NCBI RefSeq assembly: GCF_900182665.1
Contig: NZ_FXTL01000016.1
Location: forward strand, 1 to 64,000
Length of the DNA stretch: 64,000 nt
Direction of reading: 5' to 3'
Origin: Propioniciclava tarda
GTDB lineage: Bacteria; Actinomycetota; Actinomycetes; Propionibacteriales; Propionibacteriaceae
Below the pieces are notes generated by a model that searched no databases, was not told where the DNA came from, and was given only the letters and a program-made list of their open reading frames with translations. Shown piece by piece: positions 1-9,630 of the stretch (position 1 is the stretch's first letter; each line of letters starts with the position of its first letter). A program made the translations under genes and the position numbers.

Positions 1-1
1 G

Positions 2-331
2 AACCTCCATCCTCGGAAGACCTCGACCCCCGTCCCGCCACCGACACGCCGGTCACAACCCGGGCCCCCGACTACACCCTCGTCTGTGAAGAGCCGCAGA
101 AGTGACCCGCGTCTGCAACCGTTGGCCTTCCGCAATTTGATGGCCCATGAAGGCGTTCATTATCGCCAATGGGAAATGTATGGACCCGATTTCATGTCGC
201 TCTACTTGACGGCGCAAGCGAACGAAAGCTATCCAATTCTGCAGGGCTTCGGCAGAGAAGGCTGTTATAACAGGTTCGAAAGGGAGGCGAATTTACGTGG
301 GTACAACGTTTATGGTTGCTCGACCCGATAG
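2..331 (+). CDS. C-terminal HExxH metallopeptidase domain, probable polymorphic-toxin tip (5' truncated by window)
   Basis: The frame is open from the first bases of the window, so the gene starts upstream; the first internal start codon is the GTG at 86. Counting from that GTG, the visible part carries the zinc-protease signature HEGVH (His21, Glu22, His25) and a downstream NRFEREAN segment (Glu65/Glu67) that could supply the third metal ligand. HExxH followed by FEREA is common in secreted metallopeptidase domains at the ends of RHS-like and other polymorphic toxins. The next gene overlaps it by 35 bp and encodes a lipoprotein, as expected of a coupled immunity gene. Base composition is lower in GC than the rest of the window. 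The toxin assignment is inference; the metallopeptidase motif is seen directly. Confidence 0.5.
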   Translation, partial: NLHPRKTSTPVPPPTRRSQPGPPTTPSSVKSRRSDPRLQPLAFRNLMAHEGVHYRQWEMYGPDFMSLYLTAQANESYPILQGFGREGCYNRFEREANLRGYNVYGCSTR

Positions 332-755
332 AGGCCATGGCAAGCTGCGATGGCGCCGCATTCGTGCCCTCACTCTCTGCCTCTTAGCGCCCTGGTTGCT
401 GACGGGATGCACACCTGTTGACGATGTCTATGTGAAATACGAAAATGCTCAATTGACACTCGTTTCAAGATGCCCAGGCGGGTTTCGAGGACCGATAGAA
501 GTCCAGGGCGTAACCGCCTCAGGTGGCACGACGCATTTGGGACGGATCGTGCTGGCCACGCCTGTGGCCGCGGTCAATCTCTCACCCGTGAAGATTGATG
601 CAGGCTACAAGAGCGTCCTCGTAGTGTTTGATCCGAACAAGTTCGGGATTGAGGTTCCGGTTCCACCCATCGAGGGACAAGCTTACTCATATGATAGTGA
701 GTCGTCGCTAACTGAGAGACTAAAGCGTCCGGCGACAGATTTCACCTGCACCTAG
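297..755 (+). CDS. Small lipoprotein, possible immunity protein of the upstream metallopeptidase
   Basis: This 152-aa protein has a basic N-terminus, a hydrophobic segment and a lipobox ending LLTGC around residue 38, so it is probably exported and lipid-anchored. The GTG at 297 is preferred because GGGAGG (282-287) lies 9 nt upstream; an ATG at 312 is the alternative. The start lies inside the end of the metallopeptidase gene (overlap 297-331), which suggests translational coupling. The mature part shows no family I can name. A cell-surface lipoprotein coupled to an exported peptidase fits an immunity protein, but this is inferred only from position. Confidence 0.6.
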   Translation: MGTTFMVARPDRGHGKLRWRRIRALTLCLLAPWLLTGCTPVDDVYVKYENAQLTLVSRCPGGFRGPIEVQGVTASGGTTHLGRIVLATPVAAVNLSPVKIDAGYKSVLVVFDPNKFGIEVPVPPIEGQAYSYDSESSLTERLKRPATDFTCT

Positions 756-1012
756 TGTGGCCAGTATTTGAGGGTATCTGACGACAAGTCCGTTGTTGAG
801 CCCTCGTGATAGCCAAGTACCGGACCAAAGCGAGAGAGCGGGCGGTCAAAATGTGAAGGTGAGCTCGGGTTTGCGCCTATCTGTAGGGTGAGTACGGCTC
901 TGGGGTGCAGCATTCTATTAGGGATCGTGCCGCTTCTATTGCTCGGAGCCTTTTTCCACGGAGTGCCTTAGCTGCCCTATTGGAATGAGCCTCCGTTGAG
1001 TTGGTTTGAGGT
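756..1012. other. Intergenic remnant between lipoprotein and IS end
   Basis: There is no convincing gene here. A 27-codon reading frame with a hydrophobic centre (GTG 888 to TAG 971) could encode a tiny membrane peptide, but it has no good ribosome-binding site. The stretch is AT-richer than the chromosome and contains no GGACGCC/GGCGTCC. Confidence 0.4.
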
Positions 1013-1307
1013 TGACCCCTGATCCCGGACAGCTGGTTGTTTGGTCAGGCGGCCTGGTGGACCGTCTGGGTGGCCTGGTCGGCCAGCTGGTGTTCGTACT
1101 GTAGTGGGCTGAGGTAGCCGATGGCGGAGTGTCGTCGGCGGGCGTTGTACCAGGCGTCGATCCAGGTGTAGGCGCCGCGGCGGGCGGCGTCGATCGTGGG
1201 GAACACGTGCCGGTGGTAGTACTCGTTCTTGAATGTTGACCAGAACGATTCGGCAGCCGCGTTGTCCCAGCACACCCCGGTACGGCCCATTGAGCGAAGC
1301 AGGTCAG
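1013..1307 (-). mobile_element. Truncated IS3-family insertion sequence (end plus transposase C-terminus)
   Basis: The left boundary begins with TGACCCCTGATCCCGGACA (1013-1031), which resembles an IS3-group terminal sequence. It is followed on the minus strand by the C-terminal part of an OrfB transposase. Similarity stops near 1307, where the sequence switches to an unrelated secreted-protein fragment on the other strand. No second inverted repeat or OrfA is present, so this is a dead remnant marking a rearrangement junction. Confidence 0.8.
1045..1307 (-). pseudogene. IS3-family transposase OrfB, C-terminal fragment
   Basis: About 85 residues of the DDE integrase-core C-terminus remain. 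Visible signatures are GRTGVCWDNAAAESFWS, which precedes the catalytic Glu region, and NARRRHSAIGYLSP near the end; both are typical of IS3/IS150-type OrfB. The reading frame runs upstream through DLLRSMGRTG to about 1307 and then loses similarity. The upstream two thirds of the protein, with the two catalytic Asp residues, are missing, so it cannot be an active transposase. Confidence 0.85.
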
Positions 1308-1703
1308 ATGTTGTCTCGGACGGAGGCGTCCGGGGTGAAGGCCAGCCTGGACCCGGCGCCTGGGGTCAAGCTGGGCAAGCCGGTGTTGTCGGGTTCGAAG
1401 GCCACTTACACCGATGTGGCTCCGGGCTTGGATGTGGTGGTGGATGTGGCGGCTGGCGGGTTCCGTTGGTCGTGGGTGGCGAAGACGCCGGCGGCGGCGA
1501 AGAAGCTGCTGGTGGGGTCGGGCAAGTCCCGGGCGGCGACGGCCCGGCTGAAGGTGTCCGGGGGCGGCAAGTGGGCCAAAGACGGCGCTGAGGCGAAGAT
1601 TTCGAACGGTCAGGGTGCGAAGGTGGCCCGGTTGGGGTCGCCGTTGGTGTGGGACGCCCAGGTGAACCCGACCAGGATTAGCCGCTTTGTAGCGGATCGA
1701 TAG
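1308..1703 (+). pseudogene. Fragment of RHS/DNRLRE-type secreted protein
   Basis: The translated segment contains ATYTDVAPGLDVVVDV, GGFRWSWVAKTPAAA and GSPLVWDAQ. Such motifs recur in the N-terminal regions of large actinobacterial secreted DNRLRE/RHS-repeat proteins, some of which carry toxins. The 5' side is cut by the IS3 fragment at about 1307, and the 3' side leaves the family after NPT and stops at 1703. It is the only part of the left-edge island with GGACGCC/GGCGTCC (two copies), so it may come from a resident gene rather than from the incoming DNA. Family assignment is from recalled motif patterns. Confidence 0.5.
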
Positions 1704-1714
1704 ACGGGAAGATA

Positions 1715-2044
1715 GTGAGTGCGCACTCGAAAAGTTCATGGTTTGCAGTCCGGGCATTCATTAAATTCGACGACTTAGATGATTGCCCCGTGTATGAAGA
1801 GAGGATAACGCTGTGGCGGTGCTCATCGATTGAAGACGCTGTGACCCGGGGCGGGGTTGAGGCAGAAGCTTATGCGAGCGTGAACGGAGCAATTAACTTG
1901 GGTGCCTACCAAGCGTATTCCTTGACGGGGGCCCCCAAATCCGGCCACGAGGTGTTTAGTCTCATGAGATCTAGTAGTCTCTCGCTCAACGAATACCTTG
2001 ACCGATTCTTTTTTGATTCAGGAAATCGATCCACTGACCTGTGA
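1715..2044 (+). CDS. Small acidic protein, DUF4288-like, possible immunity protein
   Basis: A 109-aa soluble protein. The order FAVRAFIKF - YEERITLWRCSSIEDAV - EVFSLMRSSSLSLNEYLDRFF resembles a group of small actinobacterial proteins related to DUF4288, often found beside toxin or secretion loci. GTG 1715 is preceded by GGGAAGATA. It sits among toxin-locus debris, so immunity is a reasonable guess without direct support. It has lower GC than the chromosome and no GGACGCC copies. Confidence 0.5.
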   Translation: MSAHSKSSWFAVRAFIKFDDLDDCPVYEERITLWRCSSIEDAVTRGGVEAEAYASVNGAINLGAYQAYSLTGAPKSGHEVFSLMRSSSLSLNEYLDRFFFDSGNRSTDL

Positions 2045-2346
2045 GGGACTGATTCTCCTAATTGGGTGTCAAGCGGTGTTGAGCCAGGCGTGGTAGCGGG
2101 TGACGAGTTCGTCGTTGGGTCGTCGGCCGAGTTCGAGTTCGCTGACTCGGGCGGGCCAGACGCTGAAGGTGGGTGGTGGCTGCCGTGAGGGGTGAAGTTC
2201 TTGGCTCGGCGGGCGGGTCGGAGGTTGCGTTAGTCGGGGACGGCGCAAGGGGCTCGGATTTGGAGCATGTGGAGGCGAAGTGTTGAAATCGTGGGGCTTC
2301 GCCCCAATCGCCTCGCCGCTTCACTATGACTATATGGGTGGTGTAG
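2045..2346. other. Gene-free remnant
   Basis: No intact gene is visible. On the minus strand a frame ending at the TGA at 2069-2071 reads ...VSELELGRRPNDELVTRYHAWLNTA, which looks like the end of a decayed protein (possibly a transposase or regulator) but cannot be assigned. A small hairpin TGGGGC-TTC-GCCCCA lies at 2292-2306 and may be a weak terminator. Confidence 0.35.
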
Positions 2347-2751
2347 ATGGTGGAGTCAAGCGATATGGAAATCGGCCCTATGGCCCTGATGGTTATCGGC
2401 ATACTGTTCGCTGGATCATTCCTCTTCTCCTCTTCTTTCCGCGGCCTGTTTCGTCGTGGAGCGGAGATCATGAGTATCGATGACCTGGAGGGTCGGGCAT
2501 TTGTTCGCCAGCACCTTGCGGTGGGTTATGGTTTCTCTTCCTTGATTCTGGCTGCTGTCGCGATTGCCATCGCGCAAGTAGTCCCGACCATATCCTCGGT
2601 TTGTCTTGCTGTAGGCGGAGTCGGACTGGCTTCGATGCTGGCATTCTTCCTCTTGGTTCAAGTCGTTTATTGGTTTGCGTGGCCGAAATGGCTCATACCA
2701 CGGGATCTCCGTGGTGATCCAGGTCAGTGGCAGGCTCGTCGGAATCGGTAG
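2347..2751 (+). CDS. Small membrane protein of unknown function
   Basis: A 134-aa protein with about three hydrophobic segments: residues ~10-30 (ALMVIGILFAGSFLF), ~60-80 (LILAAVAIAIAQVV) and ~85-110 (VGGVGLASMLAFFLLVQVVYWF). A basic stretch RGLFRRGAE follows the first helix. I recognise no family. It is the last gene of the low-GC left-edge island; the shift to typical chromosomal composition occurs just after its stop. Confidence 0.5.
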   Translation: MVESSDMEIGPMALMVIGILFAGSFLFSSSFRGLFRRGAEIMSIDDLEGRAFVRQHLAVGYGFSSLILAAVAIAIAQVVPTISSVCLAVGGVGLASMLAFFLLVQVVYWFAWPKWLIPRDLRGDPGQWQARRNR

Positions 2752-2787
2752 TTGGTTCCCGCCTGGGCTACTGGTGTTCGTGACTGG

Positions 2788-2823
2788 TTGGGTCAAAGTC
2801 GCTGATGCGCCTATCCTGCATCG
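2788..2823 (+). promoter_or_regulatory. Leaderless promoter for azlC
   Basis: TTGGGT (2788-2793), an 18-bp spacer and TATCCT (2812-2817) are followed after 6 bp by the ATG at 2824. Transcription would therefore start at or next to the start codon, and no Shine-Dalgarno sequence is present. Confidence 0.5.
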
Positions 2824-3489
2824 ATGCCGCCTCTGACCCCCGCCGTGCGCATGGGCGTGTCCATCGCCCTCGCGGTCGGGGTCTACGGCATCTCGTTCGG
2901 GGCGCTGTCGGTGGCCGCTGGGTTGTCGATCGCGCAGACCATCGCGCTCTCGGCGCTGATGTTCACCGGCGGCTCGCAGTTCGCGTTCGTGGGCGTGGTC
3001 GGCGGCGGCGGGTCGTTCCCGGCGGCTCTCGCGGCGTCCTCGCTGCTCGGGCTGCGCAACGGCGTCTACGGCGTCGGGCTCGACGGCATGCTCCACCCGC
3101 GCGGACTCGCCAAGGTCCTGTACGCCCACCTGACCATCGACGAGTCGATGGCGACGGCGTCCGCCCAAGACAGCGTCGACGAGCAGCGTCGCGGGTTCTT
3201 CACCGCGGGCGTCGGGGTCTTCATCACCTGGAACCTCTTCACCGCCCTCGGCGCCTTCGTCGGCGCCGGGGTGGACGCCAAGCAGTTCGGCCTCGACGGC
3301 GCGGCCGTCGCCGCCTTCGCCGGGCTGCTTTGGCCGCGTCTGAAGGACGCCGACGCCTGGGCCACCGCCGCGCTGTGCGGCGTGGTGACGGCGCTGCTGG
3401 TGCCGGCGGTGCCGCCCGGCATCCCGATCGTTGTGGCCGGCGGCGTCGCGTTCGCCCTGGCCAGCTGGCAGCACCGGAGGTCGGCATGA
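2824..3489 (+). CDS. azlC: Branched-chain amino acid exporter, large subunit AzlC
   Basis: A 221-aa membrane protein of the AzlC (LIV-E) family, which exports branched-chain amino acids together with a small AzlD-type partner. The family signature around residues 45-60 (LSALMFTGGSQFAFVGV) and the following LLGLRNGVYG segment are clear. Hydrophobic helices alternate with short charged loops, as in BrnF. The stop overlaps the azlD start (ATGA at 3486-3489), so the two subunits are translationally coupled. It is the first gene with normal chromosomal composition after the left-edge island. Confidence 0.9.
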   Translation: MPPLTPAVRMGVSIALAVGVYGISFGALSVAAGLSIAQTIALSALMFTGGSQFAFVGVVGGGGSFPAALAASSLLGLRNGVYGVGLDGMLHPRGLAKVLYAHLTIDESMATASAQDSVDEQRRGFFTAGVGVFITWNLFTALGAFVGAGVDAKQFGLDGAAVAAFAGLLWPRLKDADAWATAALCGVVTALLVPAVPPGIPIVVAGGVAFALASWQHRRSA

Positions 3490-3797: not shown

Positions 3798-3885
3798 CGC
3801 CACCGAGGTAGTAGGACCCGATCTCGCCAGGTCGTAAGGCCATTGGCGAATGGCGATGGCGACAGGCCGTCCCTACGCTGACGGT

Positions 3886-4722
3886 ATGGACTCCCTCTTC
3901 GACGTCGTTGCCGGCCTACCCGTACACCCGCTGGTGGTGCACTTTGCGGTGGTCATTCTTCCGCTGGCGGCCCTGCTGCAGATCGCGGTCGTGCTCATCC
4001 GCGGGCTGCGCGCCCGCTGGGCCACCCTCGCCCTGCTCGGACTCGCCGCCGGCACCGTCGCCGCGTTCGCGTCCAAGGAGTCCGGAGAGAAGCTCGCCGA
4101 GCGGATGGGACTCCCGCAGACCCACGCCACCTGGGGCTCGATCCTGCCGTTCATCGCCGCCGTGCTGACCGTGGTCGCCCTGGTCTGGTGGGTCCTGCAG
4201 CGCCGGCTGTCCAGCCGCCGGTCGGTGACCCAGCAGCCCGCTGGGTTGCCGCAGCAGACGGCCGGTGCGCTGTCCGCGGTGCTCGCCGTCGGCGTCGTCG
4301 GGCTGACCATCCTGGTCGGCCACTCCGGTGCCGTGTCCGCCTGGGCCGGACGCATCGACGACTCGGCGACGACCCCTGCCACGACCGCGTCCGCCACCCC
4401 GGCACCCGCGGCGAGCGCCGCGCCTGCGGCGTCCAGCTCGAGCTCGCCCGCGGCGTCCACGACCCCGACGGCGAACTCGACGACGGACGCTCTGACCATG
4501 GCCGCCGTCCAGAAGCACAACACGGCGTCCAGCTGCTGGTCCGCGATCAACGGCAACGTGTACGACCTGACGGCCTGGGTCAGCGCCCACCCGGGCGGCG
4601 CCTCGCCGATCAAGTCGCTCTGTGGCACGGACGGCACCGCCGCCTTCACCGCGCAACACGGCCACGGCGGACGCGCGGTCAACCAGCTCGCCACCTTCAA
4701 CCTGGGTAAGCTCGCCGCCTGA
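3886..4722 (+). CDS. DUF2231 membrane domain fused to cytochrome b5-like heme domain
   Basis: The N-terminal ~110 residues form a DUF2231-type four-helix membrane domain (HPLVVHFAVVILPLAALL near residue 14). A further helix follows, then a low-complexity Ala/Ser/Thr/Pro linker (~residues 155-200). The C-terminal ~75 residues are a cytochrome b5-like fold with the HPGG heme-ligand motif, preceded by SSCWSAINGNVYDLTAWV. ATG 3886 is chosen because the DUF2231 domain begins right there; an upstream ATG at 3850 would add an unrelated 12 residues. A membrane redox role with the heme domain facing the cell exterior is likely. Two cysteines flank the heme domain and may form a disulfide. Confidence 0.8.
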   Translation: MDSLFDVVAGLPVHPLVVHFAVVILPLAALLQIAVVLIRGLRARWATLALLGLAAGTVAAFASKESGEKLAERMGLPQTHATWGSILPFIAAVLTVVALVWWVLQRRLSSRRSVTQQPAGLPQQTAGALSAVLAVGVVGLTILVGHSGAVSAWAGRIDDSATTPATTASATPAPAASAAPAASSSSSPAASTTPTANSTTDALTMAAVQKHNTASSCWSAINGNVYDLTAWVSAHPGGASPIKSLCGTDGTAAFTAQHGHGGRAVNQLATFNLGKLAA

Positions 4723-7136: not shown

Positions 7137-8102
7137 CTACACCAGACGGGCGGCGTCCACGACGGGGACCAGGGCGCTCCTGGGGTTCGACGCGCCGCAG
7201 GTGAGCCGGGCCGGCTCGGTGAGTCGATCGTGCCCGCGGACCTCGACGCGACGCTCGCCCATCCGGACCACCACCCGCCACGCCGGACCAGGCGCGACCC
7301 GAGCGGTGGTGAGGCGTCGGTCCCAGGGCTTCTCGTCCAGCAGGGGAGCCGCCGCGAGCAGAGCCGCTTGTTCGTCGGGGTCGCGCCCGACGATCCCGCG
7401 GACGTGGGCCGCGTCGGGGCGTCCGGCCTGGTGGTCGCGAACGAGCTTCACCGCCGACTCGGCCGACACGTAGCCGTACAAGACCCCGTCCGGCAGCACC
7501 GCGAGGTTGGCCGCGAACCGGTCCCCTCCGAGATGCGAGGTCTCCCAGGTCTCGGCGGGCCACTGCGTCGCCAGGACGCCCGCGACCGGACGCCCCCGCA
7601 GCGCGCAGCACGCGTCGTGGCGGCCATGGCAGCAGACCAACAAGACTCCCGCGGCCCGCACCGCCCCCGCAGCGAGCGGGTCGGCCAGCGCCTCGAGCGC
7701 TCCGCCCCAGCCGCCGTCGGCGTCCCGGACGCCCCACACCTCGACGCCGAGCCGGGCGTCGATGACGCACCAGCGGCGCTGGCGGTCGTCGCGATCCTCG
7801 GTGGGCGCGCCCGCGGCCAGCGCGTGCTCGAAGGACGCCCCGCGCCCCAGGTGCCCGGACGGCGCCTCCTCGGCGTCGGCGTCCCGCCCCGGACGCCGGA
7901 TCAACTGCAGCCGGGCCTTCGCCTGCGCCAGGGCCGCGTCCAGCAGCGCCAGCGCGGCCTCGGGTGCCTGAACGGACGACCGCGTGTCGGGCAGCCAGCC
8001 GCCGTCCTGCTCGACGAGCAGCCAGCGCATCGCCGGCGGCGCCGTGCCGAGCGCCACGTCGCAGCGGGCGCGGGCGGCGTCCGAGCAGCGGACCTCGGTC
8101 AC
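7137..8102 (-). CDS. Sucrase/ferredoxin-like family protein (thioredoxin-like Fe-S fold)
   Basis: A 321-aa member of the Suc_Fer-like family. The N-terminus RCSDAARARCDVALGTAPPAMRWLLVE and the central LLVCCHGRHDACCALRGRPV (Cys157, 158, 165, 166), followed by WETSHLGGDRFAANLAVLPDGVLYG, are hallmark blocks. The fold is thioredoxin-like and the cysteines are thought to hold a [2Fe-2S] cluster. The GTG at 8102 overlaps the JmjC gene stop (GTGA), so it is the last gene of a three-gene unit with the ADHG peptide and JmjC oxygenase. It could serve as the electron donor of that unit; this is inference. Confidence 0.85.
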   Translation of the reverse strand: MTEVRCSDAARARCDVALGTAPPAMRWLLVEQDGGWLPDTRSSVQAPEAALALLDAALAQAKARLQLIRRPGRDADAEEAPSGHLGRGASFEHALAAGAPTEDRDDRQRRWCVIDARLGVEVWGVRDADGGWGGALEALADPLAAGAVRAAGVLLVCCHGRHDACCALRGRPVAGVLATQWPAETWETSHLGGDRFAANLAVLPDGVLYGYVSAESAVKLVRDHQAGRPDAAHVRGIVGRDPDEQAALLAAAPLLDEKPWDRRLTTARVAPGPAWRVVVRMGERRVEVRGHDRLTEPARLTCGASNPRSALVPVVDAARLV

Positions 8103-9304
8103 GCGACCACCGCCACGCCCTCGACGAGCAGCGCCCGGGCGGCGTCACCCAGCTCGGACGCCGGCACCTGCTCGCCGGCCAGCAGCCGATCGACCGCGGC
8201 CCGGACGCCCGCCGGCAGCGCGCAGCGGCCCGCCCGCGAGCGGACGACGAACCCCTCGGAGGCCTCCTCGATCGTCGCCAGGAGGTGCGGGCGCAGGCGT
8301 AAGACCGCGTTCGGGGCCAGGGCGTCCGCCCTTGCCAGCTGGGCGATGGGCGGCACGGACGCCGGGCGCTGGCTGCCGCGCGCCTGCTGCAGCAGATGAT
8401 CGGTGAGCGTCTCGACAGGCACCGCGGAGATCACCGCGAGCACCGCAGCCCGGACCGCCTCGGCGTCCGAGTCGAGGTCGGCGGTGGACGCCACGTCCAC
8501 GCCCAGCGGGAGCGACGACCGCGCGTCGGAGTCGGCTGCGAGCGCGTCGCGGGCGGCGTCCAGCAGGGCCTCGGCGAGGTGGTGGCGCGTCCAGGTGTGG
8601 ACGCCGATCGTCAGGTGGATCGTCAGCCCGCCCAGCGCCCGCGCCGCGTGGACGAACCCGCGCGGCAGGTAGAGCACGTCGCCGGGGGTCAGGTCAGTCT
8701 CGACCAACGGCGGCCCGGACGCCGCGGCCGCGACGGCGTCCGCGTGCTGTTCCCACGGCTGGCTGCGCAGCGGCGACGGCCAGACGGGATCGTGGACGAC
8801 CCAATGCTTGGTGCCGGTGATCTGGACGACGAACACGTCGTGGACGTCATAGTGCGCCGAGAAGCCCTGGTTGCCGGCCGGCGTGACGTAGGCGTTGACC
8901 TGCACCGGATGCCCCAGCTCGGCGGCGAGCGCCTGGCTGAAGGTCTTGATGGGCGTCCAGGTGCGGTGCAGGCCCTGCAGGACGATCGTCGCGCCGTCCG
9001 CGAACTGGCGCCGGACGAGGTCGTCGCTCACCTGATCCCGGACGCCGGCGCCGACCCCCCCGCCGCCCGTGAACGCCGACTCGGGCAGCGTCGAGCCGCC
9101 CTTGGCCAGGCGCACGAACGGCGCCCTGAGGCCCCGGTCAGCGATCAGCTCGTCGACGGCGTCCGGTGAAAGGAGGTCGGCGAAGACGTCACCGGCGTCC
9201 CGATCGTCGCGGGACGCCAGCAACGCGTCTCGTCCCCAGGCCGGGGGGAGGGCCGGCAGCGCCGTGCCCAGGAGCCGTCCCAGCGCGGGGGTGGTTCGCC
9301 CCAC
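8099..9304 (-). CDS. JmjC-domain 2-oxoglutarate/Fe(II) oxygenase (ROX/cupin-4 type)
   Basis: A 401-aa JmjC hydroxylase of the ribosomal-oxygenase/cupin-4 class. The iron facial triad reads HYD (His151, Asp153) and His219 in LYLPRGFVHAA, and Lys166 in ITGTKHW is placed to bind 2-oxoglutarate. TDLTPGDVLYLPRG and the winged-helix-like C-terminal half fit the family. Bacterial relatives hydroxylate residues in ribosomal proteins. The start GTG 9304 has no strong Shine-Dalgarno and lies 10 bp after the stop of the ADHG-repeat peptide, suggesting coupling. Its stop overlaps the Suc_Fer-like gene. The neighbouring His/Asp-rich peptide is a candidate substrate (inference). Confidence 0.88.
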   Translation of the reverse strand: MGRTTPALGRLLGTALPALPPAWGRDALLASRDDRDAGDVFADLLSPDAVDELIADRGLRAPFVRLAKGGSTLPESAFTGGGGVGAGVRDQVSDDLVRRQFADGATIVLQGLHRTWTPIKTFSQALAAELGHPVQVNAYVTPAGNQGFSAHYDVHDVFVVQITGTKHWVVHDPVWPSPLRSQPWEQHADAVAAAASGPPLVETDLTPGDVLYLPRGFVHAARALGGLTIHLTIGVHTWTRHHLAEALLDAARDALAADSDARSSLPLGVDVASTADLDSDAEAVRAAVLAVISAVPVETLTDHLLQQARGSQRPASVPPIAQLARADALAPNAVLRLRPHLLATIEEASEGFVVRSRAGRCALPAGVRAAVDRLLAGEQVPASELGDAARALLVEGVAVVA

Positions 9305-9314
9305 GGGGTTGGGG

Positions 9315-9524
9315 CTAGTGGGAGCCGAAGTTCAGCTCGCCCGCCACGCCGTCCGCGCCGCGGTCGGCTCCGGAGTCGTGAACCTCGATGACCTCGTCGG
9401 CGCCGTGATCCGCACCGTGATCCGAGCCGTGATCGGCGGACTTCTCGGCGCCGTGATCGGCGCCGTGGTCAGCACCTTCGTCTGCGCCGTGATCCGCGCC
9501 CGCGTCCAGCTTCTCGTCCGTCAT
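9315..9524 (-). CDS. 69-aa His/Asp-rich ADHG-repeat peptide
   Basis: From residue 10 the peptide is built of four-residue units ADHG/ADEG/SDHG/AEKS (about eight in a row), then a short VIEVHDSG stretch, then ADRG and the tail GELNFGSH. ATG 9524 is strongly supported by AGGAGAG 5 nt upstream; the longer frame from 9578 lacks such a site. There is no signal peptide, hydrophobic helix or cysteine. Regular His/Asp spacing suggests metal binding, or a repeated substrate for modification. It lies 10 bp before the JmjC oxygenase gene. The opposite strand is also open here (hydrophobic AVIGAV repeats), so the strand choice rests on the ribosome-binding site and operon context. Confidence 0.6.
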   Translation of the reverse strand: MTDEKLDAGADHGADEGADHGADHGAEKSADHGSDHGADHGADEVIEVHDSGADRGADGVAGELNFGSH

Positions 9525-9630
9525 GGGTCTCTCCTGTTCGCCGTAGTGGATGGTTCCTTGAGCCTGACCCACCCCCACCGTGGAAGGAAGGCCACCCGGG
9601 TCACGGATTCGTACCGAGTGCCGGCTGGTG

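Follow-up and report, generated by a model that had tools for sequence, protein, structure and literature searches.

An aspartate-rich repeat peptide encoded beside a ROX-like JmjC oxygenase, usually with a Suc_Fer-like protein: a RiPP-like system of actinobacteria

To our knowledge, the characterised enzymes of the PF08007 type are ribosomal oxygenases (ROX). NO66, MINA53 and YcfD act on ribosomal proteins, in which they hydroxylate C-3 (the β carbon) of His or Arg, the target of NO66 and MINA53 being His; FIH also accepts Asp, and FIH and AspH hydroxylate Asp at C-3 in ankyrin or EGF-like domains (PMC4543633, in excerpt, as are the other papers cited here). Ribosomal peptides are also acted on by JmjC/cupin-like oxygenases, namely BpmG and PbsQ of the biphenomycin-type clusters, of which PbsQ hydroxylates Orn (PMC12257519). 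In addition, Bregman et al. 2025 described PF08007 JmjC proteins of fish and algae that carry a fused domain resembling the RRE, the recognition element of ribosomally synthesised and post-translationally modified peptides (RiPPs), and mentioned bacterial homologues of about 30% identity in RiPP-like contexts (PMC12710340). As for ferredoxin-like proteins, Apd1 and Aim32 bind a [2Fe-2S] cluster via C-X8-C and H-X-G-G-H (PMC11138216). With these systems we compare a tight operon of Propioniciclava tarda, located in a window of 64,000 nucleotides (the whole stretch of DNA analysed, contig NZ_FXTL01000016.1), in which a short Asp-rich repeat peptide, a JmjC oxygenase and a Suc_Fer-like protein are encoded in this order on the minus strand.

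The JmjC enzyme of the window shares the Fe triad and the domain order with NO66, MINA53 and YcfD over its full length, but the identity is about 20%, the substrates of those enzymes are ribosomal proteins, and no repeat peptide partner is mentioned for them in the excerpted text (PMC4543633). The biphenomycin-type clusters are similar in that an oxygenase of this kind works on a ribosomal peptide; they differ in their genes for a multinuclear non-haem iron oxidase (MNIO), a B12-radical SAM protein and a peptidase and in a short core of the FRF type (PMC12257519), whereas the window enzyme and its long repeat peptide stand almost alone, the two being compared here by description. The RRE-JmjC fusions likewise join an RRE-like domain to JmjC, and a PqqD-like lead in the window enzyme fits the remark of their authors, but they are fish and algal proteins for which the excerpts name no repeat peptide, and their bacterial homologues may or may not belong to the present family (PMC12710340). 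The Asp/Asn β-hydroxylases FIH and AspH differ in that their substrates are domains of larger proteins, with no linked peptide gene. In Apd1 and Aim32, C-X8-C is followed by H-X-G-G in the same order as in the window Suc_Fer, but the motif ends with His (PMC11138216). As the earlier sequence-only reading of this DNA had supposed, the trio is apparently undescribed: among the matches listed for the open-access literature, no paper describes it.

The peptide and the JmjC enzyme, usually together with Suc_Fer, form a real and widespread two- to three-gene system in actinobacteria. JmjC relatives were found in 35 of 197 genomes in a family-wide search (E 1e-20 or better) and in 58 of 396 genomes of a phylum-wide sample (E 1e-15 or better), and at least 570 were confirmed in a scan of named genomes, the best 80 of which were kept. 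The relatives kept come from a Propionibacterium metagenome-assembled genome, Enemella, Microlunatus, Serinicoccus, Ornithinimicrobium, Nocardioides, Terrabacter, Knoellia, Arthrobacter, Streptomyces, Actinomycetospora, Rhodococcus and others. A further 40 hits without a locus were added from the family-wide and phylum-wide searches, so that weak relatives are counted too; of the 179 loci in all, 175 are distinct. A repetitive peptide lies upstream of JmjC in all of the first 30 loci, two of which (L012 and L024) hold only its remaining part at a contig end. A strict detector (start preceded by a Shine-Dalgarno (SD) sequence, 40–260 aa, Asp at least 12%, Asp plus Gly at least 28%, stop at −300 to +70 of JmjC) is positive at 152 of the 167 loci, a few duplicates among them, that have a JmjC score of 119 bits or more. 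At random positions, which were not matched to gene starts, the strict detector fires at 23 of 2521 in long loci and a relaxed rule at 32 of 2539, that is to say, at a rate of 0.9–1.3%. With the relaxed rule applied to the strict misses, 152 of the 175 distinct loci have the peptide, 10 are undecidable (contig edge or gap) and 13 are without it. The co-occurrence expected by the sequence-only reading is thus borne out, and the arrangement that it had named as counter-evidence, JmjC and Suc_Fer kept without any peptide, occurs in none of the 126 pairs with a readable upstream region. These counts are descriptive, because the thresholds and the 119-bit line were set after the first loci had been viewed.

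Of the 15 strict misses, nine are due to contig edges and one to an assembly gap, and the others are three loci (L017, L093 and L110) in which the peptide is visible by eye, L041 and L163; the Rhodococcus locus starts too near JmjC for a peptide call. Among the 12 relatives below 119 bits, L160 alone is positive by the strict rule. The 13 peptide-less loci are made up of 11 distant relatives below 119 bits, which come from six genomes and all lack Suc_Fer, together with L041 and L163, the latter sitting on a long JmjC branch. At L041, a different frame just upstream encodes DVDHRDVDHRDVDNRD, perhaps a peptide remnant. In the JmjC tree, a quick FastTree with long outgroup branches, the smallest clade that holds all peptide rows has a support of 47 and includes the peptide-less L041, L163 and L170, and a single origin of the peptide-bearing clade is therefore not claimed. 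The phage search gave no match, the 13 pattern matches in viral contigs yielded no confirmed case, and each of the 131 plasmid records lies below 60% identity.

Selection acts on the peptide frame at the protein level. The ratio of nonsynonymous to synonymous differences (pN/pS), taken over seven independent homologue pairs of equal length, is 0.11 in this frame, the lowest of the six; the two remaining forward frames give 4.3 and 4.9. Antisense coding was considered as well: one antisense frame is also low (0.17), so that pN/pS alone leaves it standing, but it carries a stop codon in 56 of 151 loci, and we interpret its low value as mirroring the wobble position. Since the codons for Asp, Gly and Ala vary among relatives, it is the amino acids and not the nucleotides that are kept. 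The good ribosome-binding site reported for the peptide in the sequence-only reading is indeed present, AGGAG lying 6 nt before the ATG.

Over 151 distinct peptides, the composition is 29% Gly, 20% Asp and 17% Ala; every one contains at least seven Asp (median 18), none contains Cys, and 52 have no His. Asp is followed most commonly by Gly (1602 of 2926 Asp). In type A peptides the unit is A-D-x-G, in which x is mostly Gly or Ser and more rarely His, Ala, Arg, Lys, Gln, Glu or others, and the window peptide is unusual in having His as x in six repeat units. In type B peptides, DADGTDG-like units place an Asp every two to three residues. This split is a crude rule, by which L034, L121 and L122, ADGG-like by eye, land in 'other'. 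Both types cluster on the JmjC tree, needing 12 and 8 changes where shuffling gives means of 58 and 44; relatedness contributes to this clustering. Within residues 1–30, 42 of 50 type B peptides carry an acidic pattern, [DE][DEAN][DE][IMVT], that is DDDI- or DEDI-like and often reads LxDEDI or LxDDDM; shuffled sequences show it at a rate of 13.5%. The similar peptides of L118, L120, L121 and L122 differ in repeat number (three units vs two), which suggests that whole units are gained and lost. Pfam holds no family for the window peptide or six relatives, and their NCBIfam matches (FliH, staphylococcal Sdr/Clf repeats) were set aside as being of the low-complexity type and far below the curated cut-offs. 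Likewise, the 100% Asp at tract position 2 is built into the search pattern and is not used as evidence.

The JmjC protein matches JmjC_2 (PF08007) with E 4.2e-27 and 94.6 bits, the cut-off being 22. The HxD...H triad that had been described as intact (H150, D152, H218) is invariant in 28 sequences, taken from the first 30 loci, and in an overlapping set of 60 rows from the window and 78 available loci, the window being in both; another alignment has 48 rows from the window and 61 available loci. AlphaFold predicts the structure with confidence (pLDDT 95.3), and NO66 is its closest match, aligned along the whole chain (Z 30.4, root-mean-square deviation (rmsd) 5.0, 376 of 400 residues), followed by MINA53 (Z 27.8), YcfD (19.1), YxbC of B. 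subtilis (19.0), and FIH and JMJD5 (13.3). The best sequence matches in the PDB are also the ribosomal oxygenases of the NO66, MINA53 and YcfD group. By its PF08007 score, its triad and its NO66-like domain order, the protein is of the JmjC_2/ribosomal-oxygenase type. In the model, its C-terminal part consists of four strands, three helices and a last strand. When 12 segments of the JmjC and Suc_Fer proteins were compared with the profile of PqqD, which we take to be the archetypal peptide-recognition domain, this C-terminal domain gave P 8.6e-4 over 65 columns, the other 11 segments giving 0.03–0.5; its RRE-like character may serve as a weak lead.

The explanation we favour, which is somewhat better than an even bet as a whole, is that the operon would yield a ribosomal peptide and its own modifying enzyme, the JmjC oxygenase hydroxylating Asp at many sites of the peptide, with Suc_Fer as an optional addition. 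The ROX-type enzyme, using Fe(II), 2-oxoglutarate and O2, would bind the short acidic peptide, perhaps via its C-terminal winged-helix-like domain, and would hydroxylate many closely spaced Asp at C-β, giving a poly-(β-hydroxyaspartyl) peptide. Its first part, that the peptide is the JmjC substrate, is very likely; here the sequence-only reading gains strong support from the conserved pairing of the two genes. Its choice of His as the target is not supported, the residue after Asp being variable and a third of the distinct peptides being His-free while each has at least seven Asp, and Asp is therefore the likelier target. Because Asp is the reactive side chain found throughout, at close spacing, ROX enzymes hydroxylate C-3 and FIH takes Asp (PMC4543633), hydroxylation of Asp at C-β is the simplest prediction, and Asp C-β is probably the site. 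The product would probably stay in the cytosol, because no secretion signal is visible by eye in the peptide and no conserved exporter or protease gene lies nearby; its dense β-hydroxy-Asp carboxylates would suit hard metal ions, iron or calcium for instance, although a metal-binding role in the cytosol is doubtful enough to be offered as a suggestion only. A gene-encoded short peptide does lie beside a candidate peptide-modifying enzyme that presumably acts on it, as in RiPP systems, and the system is filed as RiPP-like, not as a proven RiPP.

Several observations weigh against this explanation. The closest solved enzymes act at His or Arg of ribosomal proteins. The PqqD/RRE-like match is weak (hhalign probability 21–24%), NO66 itself aligns across the domain concerned, and Pfam gives no match for the JmjC C-terminal domain alone in six of six cases. 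The acidic leader-like motif is found in just 11 of 95 type A peptides (shuffled rate 4.9%) and is absent from the window peptide, and the peptides of L053, L075, L112 and L174 are acidic yet hardly repetitive. L041 is a true exception, that is, a near relative of the peptide-bearing JmjC proteins without a readable peptide. Finally, no conserved protease, exporter/transporter or regulator was found near the trio among the 25 largest clusters of open reading frames (ORFs) in flanks of 1.5–5 kb, so distant partners could escape notice. A linked protease or exporter is usual, though not universal, in RiPP clusters.

Two other explanations are both unlikely. In one, the peptide would stay unmodified and act as an acidic helper, be it as iron donor, chaperone, inhibitor or leader for translational coupling, and JmjC would modify another protein, for example a ribosomal one. 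The fold, nearest to the ribosomal oxygenases NO66 and MINA53, agrees with it, and so does the JmjC start, which lies 10 nt past the peptide stop without an evident SD, for which reason translational coupling of the two genes fits. But the kind of repeat, the protein-level selection and the variable codons point to the peptide product itself, and a pure coupling leader has no need to keep Asp repeats. In the other, about equally improbable, the peptide is the substrate but JmjC and Suc_Fer together would oxidise Asp-Gly beyond hydroxylation, to a cross-link, dehydro-Asp or backbone cleavage. Asp-Gly being the commonest Asp context is in its favour; so is Suc_Fer, which is present in 126 of the 149 peptide-bearing rows with a readable downstream region and has five invariant Cys that would be superfluous for a simple hydroxylation. 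It is opposed by the 23 loci in which peptide and JmjC occur without an adjacent Suc_Fer, and by the ROX relatives, which hydroxylate (PMC4543633). Least probable is the version of the sequence-only reading, in which several His of a His/Asp metal-binding peptide would be hydroxylated and Suc_Fer would be the obligate donor. The His hydroxylation by NO66 and MINA53 (PMC4543633) and the six H-after-D places of the window peptide speak for it, the His-free peptides and the loci lacking linked Suc_Fer against it.

Under the favoured Asp hydroxylation, Suc_Fer would be an optional redox partner, for example holding the enzyme iron ferrous. It is regarded as accessory and not essential because of the 23 loci without it; in nine of these, whole genomes were searched, seven having no match at E 1e-6 and two only an HxGGH paralogue, and the idea of an obligate electron supplier is weakened accordingly. 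Linked Suc_Fer was sought by tblastn with the window protein, by which very divergent linked copies could be missed. The window protein matches PF06999 with E 8.2e-15 and 55.8 bits (cut-off 34.9). In an alignment of 129 of the 136 linked proteins, C6, C157, C165, C166, C302 and H190 are invariant, C-X8-C is kept, and position 194 is Asp in 128, so that the known motif C-X8-C-X24-75-H-X-G-G-H is departed from by HxGGD in place of HxGGH. A partly overlapping set of 30 loci from a PF06999 search gave HxGGD in 12 of 12 JmjC-linked proteins; the 18 without JmjC in the locus have HxGGH in 14 cases, HxGGD in one (L184), a reading of HxGGT in one (L192, perhaps a false anchor) and no motif in two. As judged by this motif, the Suc_Fer proteins examined (7137–8102 of the window and L180–L209) fall into two subfamilies, HxGGD with linkage to JmjC and HxGGH mostly without it, and an altered cluster ligand is possible. 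L184 is the sole exception to the linkage, with no JmjC gene within its 1.5-kb flanks. Residues 151–237 have the thioredoxin-like [2Fe-2S] ferredoxin fold (Z 11.5, rmsd 2.2, 87 residues, against Aquifex ferredoxin), the sequence profile matches a short part of the same ferredoxin at E 5.7e-4, and Foldseek against the PDB found nothing at E 0.001 or better for Suc_Fer, the best being E 0.098.

A wider proposal is possible, if short of probable: a phylum-wide actinobacterial class in which a ROX-type JmjC enzyme would processively hydroxylate dozens of Asp of a tandem-repeat peptide to an intracellular poly-β-hydroxyaspartate metal-binding polymer, with a dedicated HxGGD ferredoxin of unusual cluster ligation. 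If true, it would be a bacterial counterpart, in logic, of collagen prolyl hydroxylation. The JmjC family gains a concrete peptide partner in Streptomyces, Arthrobacter, Nocardioides, Terrabacter and others, and if Asp is hydroxylated, the pair would make up a compact modification system of two genes and would offer β-hydroxy-Asp polymers as well as a clue to the function of Suc_Fer proteins.

The features of the operon are collected in Table 1. The tight arrangement seen earlier is confirmed: 10 nt separate the peptide TAG from the JmjC GTG at 9304, and at 8102 the JmjC TGA shares letters with the Suc_Fer GTG in a GTGA overlap.

Table 1. Positions of the operon features in the window.
Feature	Position	Strand	Remarks
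Peptide gene	9315..9524	-	69 aa, ATG start, TAG stop; Asp/Gly/Ala-rich and repetitive, putative substrate (precursor)
SD sequence AGGAG of the peptide	9531..9535	-	6 nt upstream of ATG
A/S-D-x-G repeat region, peptide residues 10-43	9396..9497	-	read from sequence
Peptide C-terminal part, residues 48-68	9321..9383	-	VHDSGAD(R/K)GADGVAGELxxGS, common to same-genus relative L002
JmjC (PF08007) oxygenase, ROX-like	8099..9304	-	401 aa, GTG start
H150-Y-D152 of the Fe(II) triad	8846..8854	-	invariant in both alignments; numbering without start codon
H218, third Fe(II) ligand	8648..8650	-	invariant in both alignments
C-terminal winged-helix-like domain, about residues 310-400	8102..8374	-	weakly PqqD/RRE-like; AlphaFold model and profile comparison
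Suc_Fer-like (PF06999) thioredoxin-like ferredoxin, HxGGD subfamily	7137..8102	-	321 aa, GTG start
Putative cluster-binding motif C157-X8-C166 ... H190-X-G-G-D194	7521..7634	-	linked-protein alignment and known motif (PMC11138216)

The flanking genes are ordinary: rpiA lies upstream in the same orientation, and the opposite strand holds an alpha/beta hydrolase gene. The genome (2.97 Mb) has a single JmjC of the family and a single PF06999 protein. When ORFs of at least 110 aa around the loci with JmjC of at least 119 bits were clustered, the only widely recurring ones among the 25 largest clusters were JmjC and Suc_Fer (131 loci); other large clusters overlap the peptide, JmjC or Suc_Fer in other frames, and each of the remaining ones is present in at most nine loci. 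A shared upstream regulatory element was not found, with some conservation within Streptomyces and within Arthrobacter. As for individual loci, in L053, L075 (Arsenicicoccus) and L112 the peptide ends with DDPEL(A/S)GADLxEDQ...EPGA before JmjC, and L174 is the second JmjC copy within one genome; none of these four has a Suc_Fer match. Elsewhere in the window, 3850–4722 encodes a fusion of a DUF2231 membrane domain with a cytochrome b5-like heme-binding domain, and the GC content is 0.56–0.62 at the left end (1–3000) vs 0.68–0.77 over 3 to 20 kb.

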